This document shows positions 19,593-56,755 of a stretch of 64,000 bases of DNA, piece after piece. This DNA comes from Flavitalea plasmicola. Its GTDB lineage: Bacteria; Bacteroidota; Bacteroidia; Chitinophagales; Chitinophagaceae. The notes beneath the pieces were generated by a model. It made no database searches, was not told the origin of the DNA, and worked only from the letters and a program-made list of their open reading frames with translations. Position 1 is the stretch's first letter. Each line of letters opens with the position of its first letter. The position numbers and the translations under genes were made by a program. The stretch lies in contig NZ_JAUOTO010000003.1 in NCBI RefSeq assembly GCF_030546645.1, forward strand, positions 1,022,956-1,086,955. Reading direction: 5' to 3'.

Positions 19593-22500
19593 TCAGAACC
19601 TGAAATCGATGTTGAAGAGATACTGCCGGTTGTTGGGATACTTGAAATCCGATACACCGGGCATCACATACAGGCCGGGCGTAATGGTGGTCTGCGGATC
19701 CTGGCCGAAGAACTTCGTCGCCCGGTAAACATTGTCCGCCGACAACGACACCCTGACCCCATCCAGCTTCAGCTTACGGATCACTACTTTCGGCAGGTCG
19801 TATGACAGCGTCACGTTCCGGATAGCAAGAAAAGATCCGTCCTTCAGATACCTGGTAGACGTCTGCGTGGAATTATTGGCGTTCTGAGGACTGGGCTCCG
19901 ACGCAATATCACCCGGCTTCGTCCACACCTTATAGCCCTTTGGAAGAACCGCCTGGTTATAGTAAGGTTCGCTGCCATCGTTCTCCACAAAACGCAGGGC
20001 ATTGCTGAAGATCTTGTTGCCCGAGAGGAAATAGGCATTGACGCTCAGCGTAATCCCCTTATAGCGGAAAGAGTTGGTCATACCACCCTGGAACTTCGGC
20101 AGCGGGCTTCCTGCTTCCTGGTACGTCGCACTGTCATAGTTCGAAGTCGCTTGTCTGTAGATGACTTTTCCCGCCGCATCTTTCGTGATCTGCTCCCACA
20201 AAGGCGCCCCTGTCTGCGGGTCCACACCCATCCATTTCGGCATATAGAACTCATAAAGGTTGCCCCCGTTGCGGTAGATCTGGGAAATACCCCAGGTAGA
20301 CTGTGTACTGATGCTGACAGCAGGGAATTGCCGCAGCTTATTGGTATTCCAGTTGATGGAAAAATCCGTCCGCCATTCGAAATCATGCGTAGTGATGTTC
20401 AGGGTGCTCAGCCCTATCTCTATACCCTTATTGGCGATCTCTCCCCTGTTTTCCCACCTGCTCTCAAAGCCCACGGACAAAGGCTGTGATACCTGCAGCA
20501 GCAGGTTCCGGGTGATATTATTATATACATCCACCGTCAGGTCCACCCGCTTGAACAATCCCAGGTCGACACCCGCATTCCATTGATGCTTGCTTTCCCA
20601 GGTAAGGTCCGGACTGGGCAGCTGGGAAGGGGTCGCCGCTATCAGCGAATTGTACTGGCTGGAGAGGGAGTATAACCCCAGGTAACGGGAGGAGCCGATG
20701 TCCTGCGTGCCCGTGATGCCATAGCTCAGCCGCAGCTTCAGGTTGCTCACCAGCCGGCTGTTCGCCAGGAAATCCTCCTTGCTCAATAGCCAGCCGGCGC
20801 TGACAGCGGGGAAACGCGCATAACGATGGCTGGAAGGAAAGGCAGAGGAGCCATCCACCCTGTAAGAGCCCGTGAGGAAATATTTGTCCAGGTAACTATA
20901 GTTCACCTGCGAAATATAGGACACCAGCGTGGCCTGGTCATTGCTGCCGCTGACTACCTGGCTGTTGGACACCGTATTCAACACCTGCAGCCCTACCGGC
21001 AGGCCCTTGCCCGCCGCCCCGTTGAGCTCCGTATGGCTGCCTTCGAACGCCACTCCGGCAAGTCCGCTGATCCTGTGAGGGCCGAGGTTGAAATTGAACT
21101 TCAGGAGGTCATTGGAGATGTAGCCATAATTAAAGGTGTTCATCTCGCTGAGATAGCCATTCCCATGATACTGTCCTGCCGTGAGCGGCGAAAAGTAGGT
21201 GGTACTCTTGAAATAGGCAGCCGACACCCGGTTGGTGCTCGCCAGGGACAACCAGGGCGTCAACGTCACATTGGCGTTGAGGTCATAGTTCGCATCGAAA
21301 TTTTTGTACGGGTGATTGGAGTTCTGAATAGTATGGATGGGATTCACCTTATCCCTCGACCACCATTTGAAGGTGGAGCTGCCATCCACATACACCGGCC
21401 TGCCTGTGCTGTCATATGGATTGTCCCAGGGTAAATTGAGATAAGCATTGTACACATCGTTGTAATCATAGCTCTTGCCTGTCGTCCCGCTGATATTGAT
21501 ATTGTTGGTGACGGCAATGGCTTTGTTGAAATGATACGTGCTGTTGGCGCGAAGGTTGAGGCGCTGGTATTTCGTGTTCAGGAATGTCCCCTTTTCATTG
21601 TAATAGGACAAGCCTACATAATAGTCCGCTTTCTCTGTCCTCCCGCTGGCCGATGCATACAGGTTGGTCATCGGTGCATGCCTGAAGGTCGTCGTCAGCC
21701 AATTGTAGTTCCTGTCGCGCAGGCTCAACGGCCTTTCGCCATAGAATTTCAGGATATCTATCTTAAAGGAATTGCCGGTGTCCGTGGGAATATAATCCCG
21801 GTAATACTCCTTCTGCTGGTTGTACAGCTGGCTGCCCGACATCATCTTCATCTCGCCGAAATCAGGCGTACGTATCCCTTGCGTCACTTTCACTTCAAAC
21901 CGGGTCTTTCCGGCAGCCGCTTTTTTTGTCGTAATAATGATCACTCCGCCATTGGCCTGTGATCCATACATGGCCGTGGCCCCCGCGTCCTTCAGCACTG
22001 TCACGTTTTCCACATCATTGGGGTCATAGTTGCCGCCAATGATCCCATCCACTACGAACAAAGGGCTCTGGGAAGCATTCACGGAAGAGACGCCCCGCAG
22101 CCTGATCTCTGCGGCGGCGCCCGGTACGCCGGAGCTGTTCACCACCTGCAGACCAGCTACCTTGCCCTGCAGCATCGACCCTATGTCATTGGTCGTCACA
22201 TCCTTTAGTTTTTCCGCCGACACCACCGTAACAGCGCTGGTCAGCTCGCTCTTTCGCTTGTCGCTGTAGCCTACCACTACCACTTCATTTATCTGCTGGT
22301 TGGATTCCTTCAGGATGATGACAAAGGTCGACCGTCTGTCTACCTTCACCCATTGCGTCTCATATCCTACAAAGGAGAACTGTAAGGTGTCGCCCTCCGA
22401 CGCGGGTAGGTTGAAATAGCCCTTCCCGTTCGTCTGTGTGCCTTTCGAAGTTCCCCTGATCAGGACAGATACATTAGATAAAGGCTCTCCCCGTTCATTT

Positions 22501-22907
22501 CGTATGATGCCCGTCACCGGATCCGCCGCGACTGCCACGGAAGAGGAAGCCTCGCTCAGCACAATAAGATGATTGCTGTTGATGGAATAATCAAGCCCCG
22601 TTCCCTTCAATACAAGTGAAAGCACATACTCGAGCGGCGCCTCCTCGACCTTCAGGCTGACCACTTTTGTCTCGTAGAGATCTTTATACTGGTAGAGGAA
22701 GCGGTAGCCGGTCTTTTGCTCTATCAGCGACAGTACATTGGACAGCGGCTCTTTGTTGACAGTGAGACTGATCGTCTTCTGGGAAAAGGCCCATACGGAA
22801 AGATGGACCCCGGCCAACACCATGCATAAAGCTGTTATTTTCATAATAAACAGTAGTTTACGCCGGGCAATAAGTCGCCCGGGAACAGTTGTTCTGGTAA
22901 AATGCAT
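19593..22907 (-). CDS. SusC/RagA TonB-dependent transporter with STN domain (PUL 1)
   Basis: 1104 aa. After the signal peptide comes a secretin/TonB N-terminal (STN) domain, about residues 45-120 (ISLTVNKEPLSNVLSLIEQKTGYRFLYQY and YEYV-like repeat), a carboxypeptidase-regulatory-like domain about 130-215 (GIIRNERGEPLSNVSVLIRGT), the plug about 220-330 (EVVVVGYSDKRKSELTSAVTVV, GSMLQGKVAGLQVVNSSG, TNGGVIIITTKK) and a long barrel ending FNIDFRF. The STN domain signals through the adjacent FecR to the ECF sigma factor, so import and gene induction are linked. The start codon overlaps a -7 element read on the opposite strand. Confidence 0.95.
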   Translation of the reverse strand: MHFTRTTVPGRLIARRKLLFIMKITALCMVLAGVHLSVWAFSQKTISLTVNKEPLSNVLSLIEQKTGYRFLYQYKDLYETKVVSLKVEEAPLEYVLSLVLKGTGLDYSINSNHLIVLSEASSSVAVAADPVTGIIRNERGEPLSNVSVLIRGTSKGTQTNGKGYFNLPASEGDTLQFSFVGYETQWVKVDRRSTFVIILKESNQQINEVVVVGYSDKRKSELTSAVTVVSAEKLKDVTTNDIGSMLQGKVAGLQVVNSSGVPGAAAEIRLRGVSSVNASQSPLFVVDGIIGGNYDPNDVENVTVLKDAGATAMYGSQANGGVIIITTKKAAAGKTRFEVKVTQGIRTPDFGEMKMMSGSQLYNQQKEYYRDYIPTDTGNSFKIDILKFYGERPLSLRDRNYNWLTTTFRHAPMTNLYASASGRTEKADYYVGLSYYNEKGTFLNTKYQRLNLRANSTYHFNKAIAVTNNINISGTTGKSYDYNDVYNAYLNLPWDNPYDSTGRPVYVDGSSTFKWWSRDKVNPIHTIQNSNHPYKNFDANYDLNANVTLTPWLSLASTNRVSAAYFKSTTYFSPLTAGQYHGNGYLSEMNTFNYGYISNDLLKFNFNLGPHRISGLAGVAFEGSHTELNGAAGKGLPVGLQVLNTVSNSQVVSGSNDQATLVSYISQVNYSYLDKYFLTGSYRVDGSSAFPSSHRYARFPAVSAGWLLSKEDFLANSRLVSNLKLRLSYGITGTQDIGSSRYLGLYSLSSQYNSLIAATPSQLPSPDLTWESKHQWNAGVDLGLFKRVDLTVDVYNNITRNLLLQVSQPLSVGFESRWENRGEIANKGIEIGLSTLNITTHDFEWRTDFSINWNTNKLRQFPAVSISTQSTWGISQIYRNGGNLYEFYMPKWMGVDPQTGAPLWEQITKDAAGKVIYRQATSNYDSATYQEAGSPLPKFQGGMTNSFRYKGITLSVNAYFLSGNKIFSNALRFVENDGSEPYYNQAVLPKGYKVWTKPGDIASEPSPQNANNSTQTSTRYLKDGSFLAIRNVTLSYDLPKVVIRKLKLDGVRVSLSADNVYRATKFFGQDPQTTITPGLYVMPGVSDFKYPNNRQYLFNIDFRF

Positions 22908-22990
22908 ACCTTTGGTTTGATTAAGTTAGTAATAGGCTTTCAACTGCCTGTTGGTAACTCCGGAGAGGTGGCGCAATCACCTCTCTTTTC
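22907..22990 (+). ncRNA. predicted cis-antisense sRNA opposite the susC leader, PUL 1
   Basis: Plus strand, opposite the susC-fecR gap. TACCTTTG at 22907-22914 is a perfect TAnnTTTG -7 element, so transcription should start near 22920. An intrinsic terminator follows: GAGAGGTG, a 7-nt loop GCGCAAT, CACCTCTC (22963-22985), then TTTTC. The predicted RNA is about 70 nt and covers the susC 5' leader. The same layout occurs at PUL 2 with a related loop. A clear -33 element is not seen (a TTG lies 15 bp upstream). Known parallel: cis-encoded sRNAs (DonS type) that repress SusC/SusD genes in sigma/anti-sigma PULs of Bacteroides. Inference from sequence only. Confidence 0.5.
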
Positions 22991-23032
22991 ATTTACAGGC
23001 CTTCTTTCATCATGAAGACATATTGTGTGTTT

Positions 23033-24121
23033 TTATTTACTCCCGGTGATCACGACGGTCTTACCATTTATATCATAGGCGAAAGAGGCGGAACGACGTA
23101 AAGCCTCAAGGGCTTCTCCCACCGTTTCTTTTTCAAAGGAACCCGTAAAAAGCAAGGACTGCTGGCTGGTGTCGGTAAACACGATATGCACCTGGTACCA
23201 TCGCTCCATTCGCCTGGCCAGCGAAGCAAAGGACTCTTTCCTGAATACCAGCTTATCTTTCAACCAGGCTGTCTCAATATAGCTGCTGTCTTTGGGATCC
23301 GCCTCCACCTGCGTCACCCGGATCACCTCGTCGCGACTTTTCGCCTTGCCGCTGTCCGTCAAGGGCGCCGCCATCATTACCTGGTTGCGGATAACGATCT
23401 TTTCATTGGGTCTTAACAGGATCTTCCGCTCCGGGTCCGATCGCAGGCTGACCTCGATGACGCCTCTCACCAGGGTGGCCTCCACAAAAGAATCTTCCGC
23501 ATAAGCCCGCACGTTGAATGCCGTCCCCAGCACCCGGATGATGACATTGCCCGCATGCACCACCAGCGGCATATCGGGATTGCTGTGTATATCGAAAAAA
23601 GCTTCCCCCGTCAGGCGCATCTCCCGCTTCCTCACTCCGAAATCCTTGTTGTAGGCGAATTGACAGGCGCTGTTCAGCACCACTGTACTGCTGTCCGGCA
23701 GGTTGATCAGCGTTTTAGAGCCCGTTTTCGTAACGATCCTGTCATAAGGCTCCGCACCGGTGCCGGACGCGTTCCCTGTTTTCTTAAAGACGATACCGGC
23801 TACCACCGCGACCACCAGCATCACCGCTGCCCCTGCAAACATCCTGCTCCTGCCCGGTCGTCCGGCGATGTGCGCCTCTTCTTCGGCCGGTGCAGACGTC
23901 CCCCGCACCTGCTGCATAATGGCCGACAAACTATTATTCCTGGCTGCCATATCCTCCGCCGAAGGCCGGAAAGCAAGCGTCTTCAGCTCCGACAGCAGCT
24001 CACCATAGGGCATCGTGTCCTGCCGTTCCTGCAACAACAGATGCAATTCCCGGAGCTCTTCTTCCGTGAGCTGCCCGTCATACTGCTTAGCCAGTAATTC
24101 CCATAGTCTTTTGTCTGCCAT
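23033..24121 (-). CDS. FecR-type anti-sigma factor (PUL 1)
   Basis: 362 aa from the ATG at 24121 (MADKRLWELLAKQYDGQLTEEEL); the frame opens nine codons earlier without conserved sequence. The cytosolic N-terminal part (1-90) holds the sigma-binding helices, one membrane helix spans about 94-112, and the periplasmic FecR domain follows (YDRIVTKTGSKTLINLPDSSTVVLNSACQFAYNKDFG...REMRLTGEAFFDI), then a C-terminal DUF4974/STN-like domain (KLVFRKESFASLARRMERWYQVHIVF). It senses the loaded SusC through the STN domain and controls the ECF sigma factor. It lies 64 bp after the sigma gene, in the same operon. Confidence 0.93.
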   Translation of the reverse strand: MADKRLWELLAKQYDGQLTEEELRELHLLLQERQDTMPYGELLSELKTLAFRPSAEDMAARNNSLSAIMQQVRGTSAPAEEEAHIAGRPGRSRMFAGAAVMLVVAVVAGIVFKKTGNASGTGAEPYDRIVTKTGSKTLINLPDSSTVVLNSACQFAYNKDFGVRKREMRLTGEAFFDIHSNPDMPLVVHAGNVIIRVLGTAFNVRAYAEDSFVEATLVRGVIEVSLRSDPERKILLRPNEKIVIRNQVMMAAPLTDSGKAKSRDEVIRVTQVEADPKDSSYIETAWLKDKLVFRKESFASLARRMERWYQVHIVFTDTSQQSLLFTGSFEKETVGEALEALRRSASFAYDINGKTVVITGSK

Positions 24122-24185
24122 CACAAAGGCTGATGCAGAAAAGATCATTTACCCCTAAAAGCCTGTGTAAAAAATTTACGAAAAA

Positions 24186-49270: not shown

Positions 49271-51145
49271 TTATTCGTATCCCGGGTTCTGTACCAGTTT
49301 ATTATTTTTGATCATCTCGTCGCGGCTAATGGGCCGGAAATACATTTTATCCACCCACTGCCTGTTCTCCAGGCTATTGTCCACCACGGGCGAATAGGTA
49401 TAATTGTACAGGGTCTCGTCGTGTCTGTAGGGGGAGGGGGCGGTGGCGCCAGATTTGAGCATGCCTGTAACGCTCATGTAAACAAGCTTTCGACCGAGCG
49501 TAGCAGGGGCGATCATCCAGCGGCGCGCGTCATGATAACGCTGCTCCTCATACGCCATCTCGATCCTTCGCTCGTTCCTGTATCGCTGCCGGAGAGAATC
49601 TCCCGTAACAGTAACAGGGATGGCAGGCATTCCTGCCCGGTACCGGATCTTGTTAAGCCAGTTCCGCGCTTCCGGTTCATTGCCCAGCTCGATGTTGGCT
49701 TCCACATAGTTCAGGACGGCCTCGGTATACCGGAAGAAAGGCCAGGGGATATATTGCCGGGTAGTGTTATCTACGATATTCGGATCGGGGTCGATAAATT
49801 TTTTCATATAGTAGCCTGTCCAGCTGCCATTCCAGTTTTCGATGGAGCTCTGCCGCGTATCGAGACCAGGTATCATGCCCGAGGCTACCTGGTAAGACCC
49901 CACCTGTATCTGGTTTACCGGATCCACATTGCCGGAGATTTTGTCCCTGGGTTTCCAACCTGCACCATCATACAGGATAGTGGCATAAAAACGGGGGTCC
50001 CTGTTGACATAGGGGGCAGCTTTTTGGGTGGCATTATTCCAGTCGAACCGGGAACCGTCCATCATTTCATAGTCATCTACCAATTCCTGGATGGGAGAAT
50101 TGCCAGCCCAATTATGGTAGCCGTTCGGCCCGTTGGCCAGACCGACATAGATGCCGGCATATTCGTCCTTATTAGGTGTAAAATCGCGGGTGAACAGAAG
50201 CTCCGAAGCTGCGGTTGCGTCGATGCCAGGAGCCTTGCTACCCCCTCCCATTGCAATGGAAAGATAATTGGCCTGGGCAGCTGCCGAGGTCTCGGGTGCG
50301 CTGAGTCCGAGTTTGTATCCACTCCCCGCATCATCCAGCACCGCCTTGGCTGCATTCATCGCAGCCGTCCACCGGGTGGCAGGATCCGAAGTGGTGTATC
50401 CCAGCAGTTCGGGATGGGCATATGCCCCGATAGTGGCAGAATTGGCCTTAGCCTTCGTCATATCATGCAGGTCGCTGGCCGCATATAGCAGGAGCCGGGA
50501 TTTCAGCGCCAACGCCGCATTGACGGATGCACGGCCGGAGGGCATGGACATGCCTGTCAGCAAGAGCACCGCGCTGTCGCATTCTTTACTGATGAAATTT
50601 ACGCATTCTTCAAAGGTATTCCTGGCGATAGTATAATCCTCGTTCAGGCCATAAGTCTTGGAGATCAGCGGGACACCCCCGTAATATCTCAGAAGCTGGT
50701 GATAGAAATAGCCCCTGAGAAAATGCGCCTCGCCCATCAGCTGCTTCTTTAATGCAGCGTCGCTAAAAGTGGCCACAGGCAGCTGCTCCAGGGCGACATT
50801 GCAGGTACGGATATGGTTATACATATTCGTCCACTCGTAAGTATTATTGGTCCAGCCAAGATTGGAAGGATTTAATGTTCCCTCATTGATAGTATTGATA
50901 CCCCGTCCGGCATGGGTAAACACGGCTTCGTCGCTGAGAGAAGCCAGCATCTGCTCATCAAAACCGCCCATGCCCAGACCGCTGTAGATACCCGTGACGA
51001 ATGCCGTCGATAAGGGACCGTCTGTCCAGGTGGAGGAGGATGGCACTGTAGTCTGGGATTTTGTATCGAGAAAATCCTTTTTGCACGAGAACATGCCTGA
51101 TAAAAGAATAAACAGGCAGAATAGTTTGAATTTTATATTTTTCAT
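49271..51145 (-). CDS. RagB/SusD-family nutrient-binding lipoprotein (PUL 2)
   Basis: 624 aa from the ATG at 51145 (MKNIKFKLFCLFILLSGMFSC); an ATG three codons earlier is also in frame. SusD features: KKDFLDTKSQ after the lipid Cys, MGEAHFLRGYFYHQLLRYYGGVPLI, ALALKSRLLLYAASDLHD, FFRYTEAVLNYVEANIELGNEPEARNWLNKIR, and YRNERRIEMAYEEQRYHDARRW. At over 600 aa it is at the large end of the family and belongs to a different subgroup from SusD of PUL 1. It starts 10 bp after susC and is followed by the VCBS lipoprotein. Confidence 0.95.
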   Translation of the reverse strand: MKNIKFKLFCLFILLSGMFSCKKDFLDTKSQTTVPSSSTWTDGPLSTAFVTGIYSGLGMGGFDEQMLASLSDEAVFTHAGRGINTINEGTLNPSNLGWTNNTYEWTNMYNHIRTCNVALEQLPVATFSDAALKKQLMGEAHFLRGYFYHQLLRYYGGVPLISKTYGLNEDYTIARNTFEECVNFISKECDSAVLLLTGMSMPSGRASVNAALALKSRLLLYAASDLHDMTKAKANSATIGAYAHPELLGYTTSDPATRWTAAMNAAKAVLDDAGSGYKLGLSAPETSAAAQANYLSIAMGGGSKAPGIDATAASELLFTRDFTPNKDEYAGIYVGLANGPNGYHNWAGNSPIQELVDDYEMMDGSRFDWNNATQKAAPYVNRDPRFYATILYDGAGWKPRDKISGNVDPVNQIQVGSYQVASGMIPGLDTRQSSIENWNGSWTGYYMKKFIDPDPNIVDNTTRQYIPWPFFRYTEAVLNYVEANIELGNEPEARNWLNKIRYRAGMPAIPVTVTGDSLRQRYRNERRIEMAYEEQRYHDARRWMIAPATLGRKLVYMSVTGMLKSGATAPSPYRHDETLYNYTYSPVVDNSLENRQWVDKMYFRPISRDEMIKNNKLVQNPGYE

Positions 51146-51155
51146 ATAAATCATT

Positions 51156-54100
51156 TTAGAAAGTTACTCTTACGCCTGTATTTAAAATTCGGGACTGCGG
51201 ATAATACTGGCCGTTGCCGGAAGTGGACTCAGGGTCCCAGATCTTCATTTTATCCCAGGTGAGCAGGTTAAGTCCGCTGACATAGATACGGAGGTTGCTG
51301 ATACCGGCCCTTTTCGAAATACTGCCCAAAGTGTATCCTAATTCGATATTTTTGAGACGGATATAATTGCTGTTGCGAAGGAAGTAAGTGTTGTTGCCCG
51401 CTCCGCCACCCGTATAGTAGGTATCGCCCCTGTTGGCCAGCCGGGGATCCGTGCTGCTGGGATGATCGACAGACCAGCGATGATCATAGCTATACTGGAG
51501 GAAATTGCCGATGTCGCCCGATTCCGTACCAAAGAAGAGGAGACCTCCGGAAGCGCCCTGAAAAAGGATGGAAAGATCGAAGCCTTTGTAGGCCATGTTG
51601 GCAACCAGGCCGCCCGTAAACGTCGGGTCGCGGTTCTTATCCAACCTCTTCTCGTCGTTGCCGTCTATCTTGCCGTCTGGCGGGCCGCCATTGGGGCCTC
51701 CGATGTCCTTGAACTTCATATCACCCGGCCTTAAAGTGCCGGCGAGCGCAGAATAATCCAGGGTCCTGGTGTCGATGTCCTTTTGATCTTTGAATACACC
51801 GTCATATTCGTACGCCAGGAAATTCGGTCCGCTGGTGCCATAGGAATGGCCTGTAGCCAATTGGTATTTTGGCGCCCCTGAGGCCTCATCCCAATAGAGG
51901 ATCTTGTTCTTGGCAAATCCCCCGTTCACACTGACACTGTATTTGAATTCGCCCGCCTGCCCATTGTATCCCAGCTTGAACTCGAATCCCTTGTTCTCCA
52001 GCTTACCCTTGTTCACAGGTGGTAAAAGGCCGCTTATGCCCGAGCTTCCGGGTACGGATCCGGGATGGATCAGCATGTTGTTACGCCGGTTATAGAAATA
52101 ATCCAACTCGAAGAAAATCTTTGAGTTCATCATGCTTCCCTCCAGGCCGATGTCGGAATTCCGCGCCACTTCCCAGGTGAACTGGTCATTGGGGACCACC
52201 GTCTCGGACAAAGTCTTCAGGACCTGGTTATTGATGACCTGAGTCCCTAAACTATATAGAGAAGCAAAAGCGTATTCCTGCAGTGCTCCATTGTAATACA
52301 CCTGGTCATTGCCTAACTGTCCGTAGGAGCCCCGTAATTTAAGATAGTTGATGAGAGGAACAGCCTTAAAGAAGTCTTCATTGGAAATATTCCATCCGGC
52401 CAGCACGCCGGGAAAGAATCCAAACCGCTTCTCCTTCGGAAAGATATAGGAGCCGTCGCTACGCCAGAGGAATTCCAATAAATACTTTTCCTTATAATTG
52501 TAGCCTACACGGCCGAAATAGCTCATCCGGGCCCGCTCATAACCAGCGCCCCCCGTGTTCTGCTGATCCGATCCGCCAGCAAACAACTGGTCGACTGCCG
52601 AAGAAATAAAATAACGGCGGAAGGCATTAAAACCATCGTCGTTCACCGTCTCCTTGGATAGTCCCGCCAGCAGGTTGATGGTATGTGGGCCATAAGTATG
52701 GTCATAGGACAGCAACCCTGTCAGGTTGATGTTCAGTTGATTTTCGTCGAATTGGCTAAGACGGGGATCTGTGAATGTGGATCGCACGGATTTCGTCAGT
52801 AAAGGCGTTTTCCCGTCGGGCTCGTAGGTGGCATGGTCCCAGAAATACAGGTACCAGGGCGTTTCCCATTTCTTACCGCGGGTGATCAGTTTATCCAGCG
52901 CTCCGGAGAGGGTCAGTTTCAGCCCCTCTATCCAGGGGTTGGTAATCTCTACGCGGCCATTGGTCTGGAAATAATCTTTCCATTGCTTATCGTATCCTGT
53001 CTGGTTGGTAGTGATGACGACAGGGTTCTGACCATTTTCAATATCCGGGCCAGGAAGGCCATTGGGCCAAATCTCGGGCTCCGTCGGTTTGCCCCGCATC
53101 AGCATACGGAAGATCGATCCGGCGCTCTGTGTGGGATAGAACCTGTTCTCTTCACGAGCCGTGAGACCAATGCTGGTATTGATGTACTTATTGATCTTCG
53201 CATCCATATTCAGCCGCATATCGTACTGTTTGTACCCGGTGGCTGAATGCTTATAATAACCGTCCTGATCCAGGTAGCCCAGGGAAGCAAGGTAACGTAC
53301 GTTCTCCGATCCGCCATTGATCTGTAGGTTATGCCGAACCTGGGGAGACCAGGTCTTTAACGCGCCTTTAAACCAGTCGGTATTCGGATGTCCCCAGGGA
53401 TCGCTGCCGTCGGCGGTCTTTTTGATATAGTCGGGAGAGTAAGGAGCATTGACCACGACAGCGTTGTCCGTCCGGGTATAGCTTCCTGTGCTTTTAAACG
53501 CTGCCCAGCCGGCCGTCCATTGATCCGCCGGCAAATTATTGAAGAGGGATAGCTCATTATTAACCTCCGCATATTCAGGACCATTCATCAGCTTAGGAAT
53601 GCGCGTAGGCTGGGCCCAGCCATGGTTGAAGTCATACGAAAGCTGGGGCACGCCTGATTTGCCCCGTTTCGTTGTGATGAGGATAACCCCGTTGGCCCCC
53701 CTGACGCCATAAATAGCGGCAGAAGCATCTTTTAGTATGGAGACACTTTCGATATCAGCCGAGTTTATACGATCCAGACCGCCTGCGCGATCCGGGATAC
53801 CGTCGATCACGATCATTGCCCCGCTGTTGCCGATGGTATTGGTGCCACGGATCTGAATGGTCGATCCATCGTAGCCGGGTTCCCCGCTGGACTGAATGGC
53901 GATGACACCCGGCAGCCTGCCCGCCAGGGAGTTAGACAGGTTAACGGTGGGAGACTTTTGCAACTCCGCCCCTTTAACAGTGGCTACCGCCCCCGTAACC
54001 GTCACCTTCTTTTGTGTGGCGTAACCTACAACCACGATATCTTTCAGGGCATTCTCGGAAGCAAGCAACCGGACATCCGCGCTTGTCTTTCCTTTCAATG

Positions 54101-54680
54101 GATATTCCTGGTTGGCAAATCCAATATAGCTAAAGACCAGTATGGCATTCGGGCTGGTGACCTGTAAAGTAAATCCGCCGTCATCCCCTGTCACTGTGCC
54201 ATTATTGGTGCCTTTTTCCACGACAGACACCCCTCTCAAAGCCTCGCCCTTATCATTGGTCACTTTGCCGGTGATCTTCACTGCCTGCAGGGCACGGATA
54301 CTTTCCCCGGCGTCCGCACGGGTGATGACTACCAGGTTCTCACTGAGCTTATGATAGGTCAGTCCGGTGTTTTCCAGCACTTTATCCATGACGGCAGCCA
54401 GTTCGGCATGCTGTACCCGGATACTGATGCCCTGTTCCTTCGGTAGGATTTCGTCCTTGTACACAAATCGATAGAAACCACCTTCTTCGATGGCTTTAAA
54501 TACCTTTTTTAATTGCGTTTTTTCCAGTCTGAGACTGATATTTCCCTGCCCATAACCATTGTTGGCAAAGGATTGCATGGATTGAACAATAATCAGTAAA
54601 ATGGCAAGTTTGGTCATCAGCAGGCATTTGATGATTAAACGGCGGTTATCAACCGATACGCCGCTTGCGTTTTTTTTCAT
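51156..54680 (-). CDS. SusC/RagA TonB-dependent transporter with STN domain (PUL 2)
   Basis: 1174 aa. A signal region (LLMTKLAILLIIVQSMQSFAN) is followed by an STN domain about residues 48-115 (ISLRLEKTQLKKVFKAIEEGGFYRFVYKDEI), a carboxypeptidase-regulatory-like domain about 133-205 (KVTNDKGEALRGVSVVEKGTNNGTVTGDDGGF), the plug (DIVVVGYATQKKVTVTGAVATVKGAEL, NSLAGRLPGVIAIQSSG, GANGVILITTKRGKSG) and the barrel with the C-terminal end RILNTGVRVTF. Imports an oligomeric nutrient with SusD and signals via FecR. The N terminus starts with about 20 extra polar residues (MKKNASGVSVDNRR) before the hydrophobic core. Confidence 0.95.
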   Translation of the reverse strand: MKKNASGVSVDNRRLIIKCLLMTKLAILLIIVQSMQSFANNGYGQGNISLRLEKTQLKKVFKAIEEGGFYRFVYKDEILPKEQGISIRVQHAELAAVMDKVLENTGLTYHKLSENLVVITRADAGESIRALQAVKITGKVTNDKGEALRGVSVVEKGTNNGTVTGDDGGFTLQVTSPNAILVFSYIGFANQEYPLKGKTSADVRLLASENALKDIVVVGYATQKKVTVTGAVATVKGAELQKSPTVNLSNSLAGRLPGVIAIQSSGEPGYDGSTIQIRGTNTIGNSGAMIVIDGIPDRAGGLDRINSADIESVSILKDASAAIYGVRGANGVILITTKRGKSGVPQLSYDFNHGWAQPTRIPKLMNGPEYAEVNNELSLFNNLPADQWTAGWAAFKSTGSYTRTDNAVVVNAPYSPDYIKKTADGSDPWGHPNTDWFKGALKTWSPQVRHNLQINGGSENVRYLASLGYLDQDGYYKHSATGYKQYDMRLNMDAKINKYINTSIGLTAREENRFYPTQSAGSIFRMLMRGKPTEPEIWPNGLPGPDIENGQNPVVITTNQTGYDKQWKDYFQTNGRVEITNPWIEGLKLTLSGALDKLITRGKKWETPWYLYFWDHATYEPDGKTPLLTKSVRSTFTDPRLSQFDENQLNINLTGLLSYDHTYGPHTINLLAGLSKETVNDDGFNAFRRYFISSAVDQLFAGGSDQQNTGGAGYERARMSYFGRVGYNYKEKYLLEFLWRSDGSYIFPKEKRFGFFPGVLAGWNISNEDFFKAVPLINYLKLRGSYGQLGNDQVYYNGALQEYAFASLYSLGTQVINNQVLKTLSETVVPNDQFTWEVARNSDIGLEGSMMNSKIFFELDYFYNRRNNMLIHPGSVPGSSGISGLLPPVNKGKLENKGFEFKLGYNGQAGEFKYSVSVNGGFAKNKILYWDEASGAPKYQLATGHSYGTSGPNFLAYEYDGVFKDQKDIDTRTLDYSALAGTLRPGDMKFKDIGGPNGGPPDGKIDGNDEKRLDKNRDPTFTGGLVANMAYKGFDLSILFQGASGGLLFFGTESGDIGNFLQYSYDHRWSVDHPSSTDPRLANRGDTYYTGGGAGNNTYFLRNSNYIRLKNIELGYTLGSISKRAGISNLRIYVSGLNLLTWDKMKIWDPESTSGNGQYYPQSRILNTGVRVTF

Positions 54681-54684
54681 AACT

Positions 54685-54776
54685 TAGTTTTGATAAAATG
54701 ATAAGAACCCGCTCCGCATGGAGCAGGAATTGTCTTTACACCGGCGGGGAATGCTGCAATCATTCTCCGCTTTTTC
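54685..54776 (+). ncRNA. predicted cis-antisense sRNA opposite the susC leader, PUL 2
   Basis: Plus strand. TAGTTTTG at 54685-54692 is a perfect TAnnTTTG -7 element 4 bp from the susC start codon, with TTG 17 bp upstream; transcription should start near 54698. The terminator is GCGGGGAATG, loop CTGCAAT, CATTCTCCGC (54744-54770, one mismatch in ten pairs), then TTTTTC. The predicted RNA of about 75-80 nt also contains a smaller hairpin (54708-54727, CCCGCTCC with GGAGCAGG). The same arrangement, loop type and distances occur at PUL 1. Sequence inference only. Confidence 0.5.
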
Positions 54777-54906
54777 GTTAACAGACAGGAATGTGTTAAG
54801 TGATTTTCATATAAGCAATTTTGGTTAAACAATAGACGGCCCCATGCAGGCTGCCCGCAATGTCGGAAAGGGAGTCATGCCGGTGCTGATGCATCCGACT
54901 TCTATA

Positions 54907-56028
54907 CTAGGGTGTTATGGTAATCTCTTTTTTGCTGATGACATACCGGAAATTACCCGTCATCCGCAATGCCTCCATCACCTGCCGCAAACTCTCATCT
55001 TCGAAGACGGCGCTGTATTCCGTATGCTTAAGTCTTTCATCTTTGATAGTCACCTTTACATCATACCAGCGCTCGATCTTCCGGGCGGCATCCTCCAGCG
55101 TTTCCTTGTCAAAAGCAAGCTGGTTCTTCACCCACAGGATATCCATGGCCGTACTATCCTTTTCCTGCAGATGCGCTTTGCCCAGTGTCATCACAGGCGC
55201 GGGCTCCTCCTTTTGTAGCACGGGCTTATTCTTTACGACGATCGCCTTGCCGTTCTGTACCACCAACTTTTCGTTGGGTTGCAAAATTATCTTCTTATCG
55301 GGGCTGCTTCGCAGCGTCACTTCGATAGAGCCGCGGATCAGGACTGTCTCCGTATTCTTTTCGTTATTATAGCTCCGGATATTCAGGCTGGTGCCCAATA
55401 CCTTTATATCGATGGAATTGGCATGGATGATAAATGGATGGTCCTTGTCCTTCGCAATGTCGAAATAGGCTTCACCAATTATCTGCACCTGCCGGAAAGG
55501 GCCCCGGAAATTCTCGTCATAGATGATCCGGCTGTCGGCATTCAGCCATACCTGCGATCCATCCGGCAACTGGATCTTTGACTTGGAGCCTCGTTTTGTG
55601 CTCACCGTATTCTGCGCCGTCCGCGTCGCCTCGCCCCTGGGCTCCTGTACGTTTACAAACAGGAATACCAGGGCTATGGCCGCGGCTATTCCCAGTGCCG
55701 GCCATAGCAGCCGACGGGTCCACCGGGACGAGCCAACGCTGACCTCCTCTTCCTCCTCCAGAACGGCTGTCGTCTCATAATTGAGGGCAGGGGCTGATAA
55801 ATGATTGCTCAGCCGCTGCAGGTGCCTGTTAAGCGCGCCTCCCCTCCTGGCATCCGACGGCACGCTCTCCCATAGGCCATGCAGCATTTCCATCCGCACC
55901 CCCATCTCCGGACAACGTACGAGCCATGCATCCAGCTCATCCAATTCCTCAGGCGTAGCTTCTCCGGCAAGTCGTAAACTTACCAGCAGCCAAAACCTTT
56001 CTTCCTGTTTAAATTGATCTTCCTGCAT
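54907..56028 (-). CDS. FecR-type anti-sigma factor (PUL 2)
   Basis: 373 aa. Cytosolic N terminus 1-105 (RFWLLVSLRLAGEATPEELDELDAWL), one membrane helix about 107-126 (LLWPALGIAAAIALVFLFV), periplasmic FecR domain (NTVSTKRGSKSKIQLPDGSQVWLNADSRIIYDENF...VQIIGEAYFDIAKDKDHPFIIHA) and a C-terminal DUF4974 domain (LAFDKETLEDAARKIERWYDVKVTI). Partner of the upstream ECF sigma factor and of the STN domain of SusC. The Glu run (LEEEEEVSV) just before the helix is unusual. It starts 86 bp after the sigma stop. Confidence 0.93.
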   Translation of the reverse strand: MQEDQFKQEERFWLLVSLRLAGEATPEELDELDAWLVRCPEMGVRMEMLHGLWESVPSDARRGGALNRHLQRLSNHLSAPALNYETTAVLEEEEEVSVGSSRWTRRLLWPALGIAAAIALVFLFVNVQEPRGEATRTAQNTVSTKRGSKSKIQLPDGSQVWLNADSRIIYDENFRGPFRQVQIIGEAYFDIAKDKDHPFIIHANSIDIKVLGTSLNIRSYNNEKNTETVLIRGSIEVTLRSSPDKKIILQPNEKLVVQNGKAIVVKNKPVLQKEEPAPVMTLGKAHLQEKDSTAMDILWVKNQLAFDKETLEDAARKIERWYDVKVTIKDERLKHTEYSAVFEDESLRQVMEALRMTGNFRYVISKKEITITP

Positions 56029-56114: not shown

Positions 56115-56681
56115 TTAAGAATGGGAGAACCGGTTGATCTCCTTAAAACCCGATTGCAGATAGGCTGGCAGCATTTCCCCGATCTTGCGGACAGCAATAG
56201 CCAGCTGATTGCGGACAGTCAATGGAGATATTTCCAGCACAGCGGCCACTTCCTTATATTTAAGACCTTCCTCCTTCACGAGCTGAAAGATAAGCCGGCA
56301 TTGCGGCGGCAGCTGCCGGATGACACGCCCGATCTGCTGGATGAGATCCGCGGAAATACACATTTCCACCGGCCCGTTGAGCTCGATCACAGCCTCCACG
56401 TCCAGCTCATCCAGGCTGACCATCGTATTCTTATAATGCTTGGTAATATAATTGAAGGAGAAATTCCTGGCAATGGTATAGAGATAGACTTTCAGGTTTT
56501 CGATCTCCGGCAGCCTGTCCCGGATCTGCCACATCTTTATAAAAACATCGGAAACGATCTCTTCCGCCACTTCCTGCGACTTCACCAGGGAGTAGGTGAA
56601 CCTGAAGATACCTCCGGACAAGAGCTCGAACAACTGGTTGTATGCTTTCATATCCTCATAGAAAGCAATGCGCTCCTGCAT
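56115..56681 (-). CDS. ECF sigma-70 factor (PUL 2)
   Basis: 188 aa from the ATG at 56681 (MQERIAFYEDMKAYNQLFELLSGG). The open frame extends 20 codons further to a TTG at 56741, but those residues (HDACNVLLLHLDQ) are not conserved-looking and cover a palindromic region. Region 2: IFRFTYSLVKSQEVAEEIVSDVFIKMWQIRDRL; region 4: QLPPQCRLIFQLVKEEGLKYKEVAAVLEISPLTVRNQLAIAVRKIG. It should drive PUL 2 transcription when FecR is triggered. Confidence 0.92.
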   Translation of the reverse strand: MQERIAFYEDMKAYNQLFELLSGGIFRFTYSLVKSQEVAEEIVSDVFIKMWQIRDRLPEIENLKVYLYTIARNFSFNYITKHYKNTMVSLDELDVEAVIELNGPVEMCISADLIQQIGRVIRQLPPQCRLIFQLVKEEGLKYKEVAAVLEISPLTVRNQLAIAVRKIGEMLPAYLQSGFKEINRFSHS

Positions 56682-56739
56682 TTCTCGTATGGCAATAGTT
56701 TGGTCCAAGTGTAGTAGTAAAACGTTACATGCATCGTGC

Positions 56740-56755
56740 AATCGTTTACACGATT
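56740..56755. promoter_or_regulatory. palindrome upstream of the PUL 2 sigma gene
   Basis: AATCGT, TTAC, ACGATT is a perfect 6-bp inverted repeat 58 bp upstream of the preferred ATG. An overlapping second repeat (ATCGTG at 56733-56738 with CACGAT at 56749-56754) gives two nested palindromes, suggesting a regulator site. No regulator is assigned. Confidence 0.35.

Follow-up and report, generated by a model that had tools for sequence, protein, structure and literature searches.

The window analysed here, a stretch of 64,000 nt from Flavitalea plasmicola, contains the loci PUL 1 and PUL 2, which both show the order sigma-fecR-susC on the minus strand. The first-pass annotation had called the genes of PUL 2 divergent from those of PUL 1, which may hold for their sequences but not for their orientation. 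The features of both loci are as follows.

PUL 2
56115..56741, minus strand: ECF sigma factor gene
54907..56028, minus strand: fecR-like anti-sigma gene
54796..54810, minus strand: tiny ORF ATG AAA ATC ACT TAA (MKIT*), between fecR and the antisense terminator, read by eye
51156..54680, minus strand: susC-like TonB-dependent receptor gene (STN, CarboxypepD_reg and Plug domains)
49271..51154, minus strand: susD-like gene
54685..54692, plus strand: -7 promoter box TAGTTTTG (TAnnTTTG) of the predicted antisense RNA, from the sequence
54697..54775, plus strand: predicted antisense sRNA of about 79 nt with two hairpins, from the R1 match (see below) and folding
54700..54734, plus strand: upstream hairpin, base GATAA/TTGTC (54700-54704 / 54730-54734), upper stem 54708-54715 / 54720-54727
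54743..54775, plus strand: intrinsic terminator, stem 54743-54753 / 54761-54771, loop CTGCAAT (54754-54760), T run

PUL 1
23033..24148, minus strand: fecR-like gene
19593..22907, minus strand: susC-like gene (STN domain)
22907..22914, plus strand: -7 box TACCTTTG, overlapping the susC ATG, from the sequence
22919..22989, plus strand: predicted antisense sRNA of about 71 nt with two hairpins, terminator stem 22963-22970 / 22978-22985

At PUL 2, the susC start codon occupies 54678-54680 on the minus strand, and the region upstream of it is the complement of the predicted antisense RNA. The box TAGTTTTG, of the form given for the Bacteroidota promoter consensus (TAnnTTTG / TTTG) in PMC7366714, begins 5 nt past this start codon and is found as TAG[GT]TTTG in the window and in five same-genus orthologs. 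PUL 2 is atypical in this respect: the position abutting the start codon, usual for the family, holds TAACTTAG, with one mismatch to TAnnTTTG, and the perfect box lies 5 nt further on. No clear -33 element was seen at the PUL 2 antisense promoter. Both ends of the RNA are predicted, the 5' end being placed at the fifth nucleotide after the box. The terminator reads GCGGGGAATG (54744-54753), CTGCAAT (54754-54760), CATTCTCCGC (54761-54770) and TTTTT (54771-54775). Folded as RNA, the antisense strand at 54697-54776 forms two clean hairpins with an MFE of -30.5 kcal/mol (z -4.6); the sense strand reaches -27.9 kcal/mol (z -3.2), i.e., less than the antisense strand but better than shuffles. The box, the two-hairpin RNA and the intrinsic terminator are all kept in the five same-genus orthologs.

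The PUL 1 terminator (22963-22989) is composed of GAGAGGTG, the loop GCGCAAT and CACCTCTC, followed by TTTT. Its antisense strand (22919-22990) also folds into two clean hairpins, one of them upstream of the terminator (MFE -31.8 kcal/mol, z -6.4), and its sense strand folds with -22.7 kcal/mol (z -4.4). The box, the hairpin with a 7-nt loop and the T run that the first-pass annotation had described at both PULs are readily read in the sequence. The distance from the ATG to the hairpin is similar at the two loci, as claimed, although our recount gives 63 and 55 nt instead of 64 and 56. The terminator hairpin was correctly identified, while the upstream hairpin at 54700-54734, part of the conserved RNA, had been missed. 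The tail supposedly shared after the terminator (GTTAACAG / ATTTACAG) is absent from the PUL 2 orthologs and looks incidental, and the shared loop GCAAT recurs among paralogs without being universal.

A predicted antisense element downstream of fecR

The genome contains 80 FecR_C matches, 11 of which lie inside large receptor frames, the others defining 69 FecR loci. Of the gaps after fecR, 52 are 60 nt or longer. Dinucleotide shuffles predict antisense-strand terminators in 8.3 of these and sense-strand terminators in 1.9; the observed numbers are 38 and 4. The -7 box abutting the start codon, which in the sense-strand reading is CAAANNT immediately followed by ATG, is present at 26 of the 69 genes after fecR if all in-frame ATGs up to 150 nt away are admitted, starts being picked by the box motif where there are several such ATGs. 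It is present at 21 of the 69 with the mechanically first start, and at none of 68 fecR starts, for which only the most upstream ATG was considered. The claim that this layout exceeds chance, initially made from two loci, is therefore upheld by both the terminators and the box. The -33 element is weak in the family, with TTTG at a spacing of N19 in 3/26 loci of this genome and 3/21 of the probably Bacteroidales genomes described below.

A covariance model, R1, was trained on 22 own-genome paralogs (alignment A2). The by-hand removal of 32 of the 69 loci (short gap, no box or unclear start) left 37, of which 34 entered alignment A1 and 22 entered A2 and R1; three of the removed loci (L013, L018 and L023) later matched R1. 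At E values up to 1, and with 150 of 1877 first-look candidates scored, R1 retrieved 36 matches in the 8.73 Mb genome. All 36 sit 4-136 nt downstream of a FecR match and on the opposite strand, and in all 36 the gene after the match has STN, CarboxypepD_reg and Plug domains. Fourteen matches are outside the training set, including that of PUL 2 (54678-54780, 47.4 bits, E 3.1e-4 for the whole genome); the match at PUL 1 (22905-22997) is inside it. Thus, what had been presented as the second copy of two is one of 36 model matches in the genome. A trans-encoded family was also considered and is ruled out by the position of these 36 matches, all antisense downstream of FecR. Searches against Rfam gave no match at the gathering threshold in the window or in 20 loci, and none up to E 1 in the PUL 2 gap. 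In 7 of 29 own-genome loci, the distance from fecR to the antisense terminator is below 25 nt, so at these loci the susC message must either begin within fecR or continue from it.

The link to FecR can also be followed among orthologs. Seventeen SusC relatives of PUL 2 were found in named genomes, 15 with a readable start and 2 at unreadable loci; Puia dinghuensis carries the ortholog. The four FecR-linked orthologs (L100, L101, L102 and L114, the same places as L071, L073, L074 and L072) all have the box and the terminator, whereas none of the eleven relatives without FecR has either, the absence of FecR being judged from the C-terminus of the upstream gene. These eleven are 59-68% identical and match from residue 91 or later (STN corresponds to residues 70-121). 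Box and terminator track FecR among the PUL 2 SusC orthologs.

In the relatives set, R1 matches 26 of 58 genomes at E 0.001, own genome included, although a search over more than 40 genomes applies stricter filters, with which weak matches are lost. The highest counts are 57, in a Puia genome with 6% contamination, and 35, in a member of another genus of the family. Among the family's 16 genomes from outside Puia, 7 have a match, and the 23 genomes from other families of the order have none at the same threshold. In the phylum sample, matches were obtained in 11 of 148 genomes, own genome included, belonging to three families. Among the 36 R1 hits fetched from other genomes, 34 have a FecR-like ORF on one side and a SusC-like ORF on the other, the exceptions being L154 and L178. 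At L154, the R1 match runs antisense to the beginning of a SusC-like gene, with no FecR-like ORF in the fetched stretch.

Since R1 was built from own-genus sequences and can miss divergent forms, the layout itself was tested in six probably Bacteroidales genomes, an assignment judged from Mfa_like_1 proteins only. The Mfa_like_1 probe retrieved 2 of 148 genomes in the phylum sample and 11 of 296 in the class sample; 7 of these 11 were taken, and 6 of the 7 have FecR. Genome G313 has 52 FecR_C matches, some inside SusC, of which 25 were fetched. After leaving out 9 of 50 loci (fecR or the next gene unreadable, or the gap shorter than 60 nt), the 41 remaining gaps of at least 60 nt contain 28 antisense terminators (4.2 expected) and 2 sense terminators (1.0 expected). 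A box whose last base is G or A abuts the susC ATG at 22 loci, 21 of them with a terminator, and the predicted RNAs, counted up to where the stem ends, are 65-117 nt long.

Covariation and the strand of the structure

The paralogs have a closing stem in common, in which the 5' nucleotides of the predicted RNA (GTTTGGGTTAA in many) pair with a stretch just before the terminator. In 21 of 26 loci that we grouped as type A, this partner ends 1-5 nt before the terminator. The mean closing-stem score over these 26 loci is 8.0, against 5.4 in shuffles, and the stem beats its own shuffles at 0.05 in 14 of the 26 own-genome loci and in 8 of 21 loci of the probably Bacteroidales genomes. In alignment A2 (22 paralogs), the closing stem and terminator show double changes in 17 of 20 pairs, and 85.6% of the cells are paired, compared to 34-55% when the partners are slid by 1-3 columns. 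None of 500 shuffles reaches any of the five measures used for this alignment.

These results bear on the possibility that the segment is an ordinary terminator, either accompanied by a chance promoter in the gap or serving fecR. Terminators are indeed common between genes, but a terminator of fecR would need its T run on the other strand, the antisense terminators far exceed their expected number, the box has a fixed place and every genome model match is downstream of FecR. The terminator excess, the fixed box, the covariation (0/500 shuffles) and the FecR link refute an ordinary or chance terminator as a general account, and such an origin is scarcely credible for PUL 2.

Because a G-U pair turns into an A-C mismatch when the complementary strand is read, such pairs tell on which strand a structure is maintained. 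The first-pass annotation had proposed comparing covariation on each strand over many susC-fecR gaps, and in every set that we counted the G-U pairs are mostly antisense (Supporting counts are given here as antisense:sense). In this genome, the ratio is 36:6 for the terminators of 36 of the 37 retained loci (L038 left out) and 52:6 for the closing stem of the 26 type A loci. Both counts favour the antisense strand, since their regions had initially been selected by antisense pairing and had to carry an antisense T run. When pairing was scored symmetrically for the two strands, the 21 loci of the probably Bacteroidales genomes gave 29:1 and 36:9, the antisense T run, which again favours that strand, being required here too. 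The six aligned PUL 2 orthologs gave 21:2 in all: 8:0 in the base of the upstream hairpin, 11:0 in the terminator, and a neutral 2:2 in the upper stem of the upstream hairpin, where 5 of 48 cells are unpaired. As judged from these comparisons, the structure is under selection on the antisense strand.

The antisense reading could nevertheless be the mirror image of a segment acting in the susC mRNA, as an attenuator, a processing signal or by RBS sequestration, which is the alternative that the first-pass annotation had put forward. The sense strand does fold beyond shuffles at both loci, the upper stem at PUL 2 does not discriminate between strands, and the tiny ORF and a hairpin within the susC codons (see below) may act on the sense strand. 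However, the G-U pairs are mostly antisense in every set, the T runs follow the hairpins on the antisense side (38 vs 4 of 52 gaps), and a promoter box fixed beside the ATG has no role in a leader. The antisense excess of G-U pairs and of terminators makes a sense leader unlikely as the main function, and we consider it a very improbable explanation of the locus as a whole. A secondary sense role may exist besides the antisense RNA, in view of the neutral upper stem, the sense folding (z -3.2) and the susC-codon hairpin, which lies outside the antisense RNA.

A related reading, compatible with a genuine antisense RNA, is that the sense leader is also read and folded, the two RNAs competing for one stretch. 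The tiny ORF has a counterpart of 4-6 codons at the same place in the window and in 5/5 PUL 2 orthologs (MKRIT*, MKKVT*, MSHKVT*, MRRACT* and MKKTPD*). In the probably Bacteroidales gaps, 54 of 85 ATGs open ORFs of at most six codons, against 33.6% expected (P 1.6e-8, the ATGs not being independent), as do 22 of 39 last ATGs, against 13.1 expected (P 0.003). In contrast, the excess is not significant in the own genome (21 of 65 ATGs vs 25.5%, P 0.13; 8 of 30 last ATGs vs 7.6); the test of tiny-ORF regions in this genome gave 17 of 22 regions against 12.7 expected. A hairpin of varying sequence was also observed in susC codons +10 to +56, upstream of the antisense promoter, for example in PUL 1, L007, L012, L025, L029 and L034. 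Its mean z is -1.0 (s.e.m. 0.25) in the 36 loci with the RNA; it is weaker but present in 32 other loci (-0.5 to -0.65), a set that is not free of the RNA, as 3 of the 32 match R1. Overall, such a double use of the stretch is possible, but we would not presume it.

Two further observations concern the sense strand of these gaps. The short ORFs of the probably Bacteroidales gaps (L188-L237) are often located at GCCTATG (16 in 39 gaps), which could alternatively be an ECF promoter element. The motif AACC(N)AAA, perhaps a ribosome-binding or promoter element, occurs within -45 to -5 of susC in 20 of 36 antisense RNA loci, in 7 of 33 other genes after fecR (4 match R1), and in 1 of 68 fecR starts.

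Relation to DonS and other PUL-associated RNAs

Antisense RNAs at PULs have been described in Bacteroides. DonS is reported to act negatively and to be one of a group of cis-antisense RNAs, 78-128 nt long and encoded divergently to susC (PMC7366714), a family traced to Cao et al. 2016 (J Bacteriol) through the works citing it (PMC7366714, PMC10994844, PMC11697453, PMC9723704). Repression by DonS is reported in B. fragilis (PMC7366714, PMC10994844, PMC11697453), where antisense RNAs are mentioned at 15 PULs (PMC9723704), and its mechanism is called unknown in PMC11697453. In B. thetaiotaomicron, 32 PUL-associated antisense RNAs are reported, several visible on northern blots (PMC7366714, PMC10994844), and their correlations with the PULs are both negative and positive (PMC10994844), so the sign of regulation should be measured locus by locus.

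The elements analysed here resemble DonS, as described in these sources, in being divergently encoded and antisense to the susC start region of a PUL, predicted to be short, with a -7 box of the primary-sigma type (the -33 element being weak) and an intrinsic terminator, the last criterion being our own expectation for a discrete short RNA rather than one from the DonS paper. The lengths predicted here, about 79 nt for PUL 2 and 71 nt for PUL 1 with predicted ends, compare with 78-128 nt for DonS. The lineage differs (Chitinophagaceae), repression is reported for DonS and predicted here, and the likeness is by description and not to the DonS sequence. The DonS-type layout, together with the closing stem, is found in the six probably Bacteroidales genomes as well. 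The antisense RNAs of B. thetaiotaomicron PULs are similar in position and in numbering dozens per genome (32 there, 36 matches here), but their expression was measured whereas ours is predicted (PMC10994844, PMC7366714). The kind of RNA is already known, from DonS and the PUL antisense RNAs of Bacteroides. Our analysis seems to add a second lineage with dozens of copies per genome, a box abutting or overlapping the susC start codon, a covarying closing stem and a search model, some of which the DonS paper may already describe. A limited literature search under the names Chitinophaga (antisense small RNAs) and Chitinophagaceae (sRNAs and polysaccharide utilization) found no earlier report.

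Positions 54685-54776 very probably encode a cis-antisense sRNA of the DonS type, which would base-pair with the leader of susC and repress this gene. The promoter box, the terminator, the conservation of structure on the antisense strand and the link to fecR-susC gaps are observed. We infer that the sRNA is transcribed, that the susC message passes through this stretch and that both pair in the cell, with repression as the result. In the proposed mechanism, the polymerase with a primary (sigma-ABfr-type) sigma factor would initiate from the TAnnTTTG box next to the start codon of susC, giving the two-hairpin RNA of about 79 nt, ended by the intrinsic terminator before fecR. The sequence that begins about 17 nt upstream of the susC ATG and extends outward, and in which the ribosome-binding region is expected, would be the exact complement of this RNA. 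Once the operon is switched on by the ECF sigma/FecR pair, the antisense RNA would pair with the susC leader and lower the output of SusC, and so of SusD, by blocked ribosome loading, duplex decay or polymerase collision, the candidate routes. It might also be that only the firing of the antisense promoter matters and the sequence of the RNA does not, given that this promoter lies directly at the susC start and points towards the sense polymerase. The compensating changes in the closing stem and the persistence of the terminator across distant lineages reveal selection on the RNA itself and make interference by transcription alone unlikely.

The control of PULs by ECF sigma/FecR pairs is usually told as a transcriptional story. 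The antisense RNA would add to it a threshold and an off-switch, and appears to be a widespread version of the control known from gut Bacteroides. If this is correct, about half of this genome's transporters linked to FecR (36 matches vs 69 fecR loci) carry a built-in antisense RNA, as does a similar share in the six probably Bacteroidales genomes, judging from antisense terminators in 28 of 41 gaps. R1, along with the rule that the start codon of susC is abutted by an antisense -7 box, makes the RNA countable in other Bacteroidota, and the manner in which DonS acts becomes testable on a predicted structure, the closing stem plus terminator.

Some paralogous RNAs (L025, L028, L032, L049, L040 and L059) share up to 23 nt with other susC leaders, enough for cross-pairing between PULs. 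Non-cognate RNA-leader pairs with a perfect complement of at least 16 nt number 26 of 1260, and the other loci compared for leader pairing are not free of the RNA, as 4 of 33 match R1, L038 included. The PUL 1 and PUL 2 RNAs have no match above 9 nt to the other leaders among the 69. More speculatively, FecR-controlled susC genes could have a phylum-wide two-sided switch, with an antisense promoter over the start codon, a covarying closing stem with a 5' strand complementary to the presumed ribosome-binding region, and a sense leader with a tiny ORF and an early coding hairpin. Transport genes would be tuned by two RNAs contending for the same 100 nt, and PULs would form a hierarchy through cross-regulation by close paralogs, which share up to 23 nt. 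We hold this extended scheme to be doubtful, if conceivable.

A partial analogy exists with the FopS / GibS sRNAs and RbpB, in which multicopy sRNAs are reported to be aimed at susC mRNA start regions (PMC11697453). Some paralogous antisense RNAs of this genome could likewise pair with each other's susC leaders. In contrast, FopS is described as acting in trans, with 9 of 14 copies intergenic, and as having a single-stranded 5' stretch (PMC11697453), whereas all 36 R1 matches are antisense next to fecR and their 5' end is predicted in a stem. As for RbpB, this genome has RRM_1 proteins, with 9 matches. Three of these nine map close to the FecR/antisense-RNA locus L018, no more than about 5 kb away (G000:C15, approximately 285,500-290,700).
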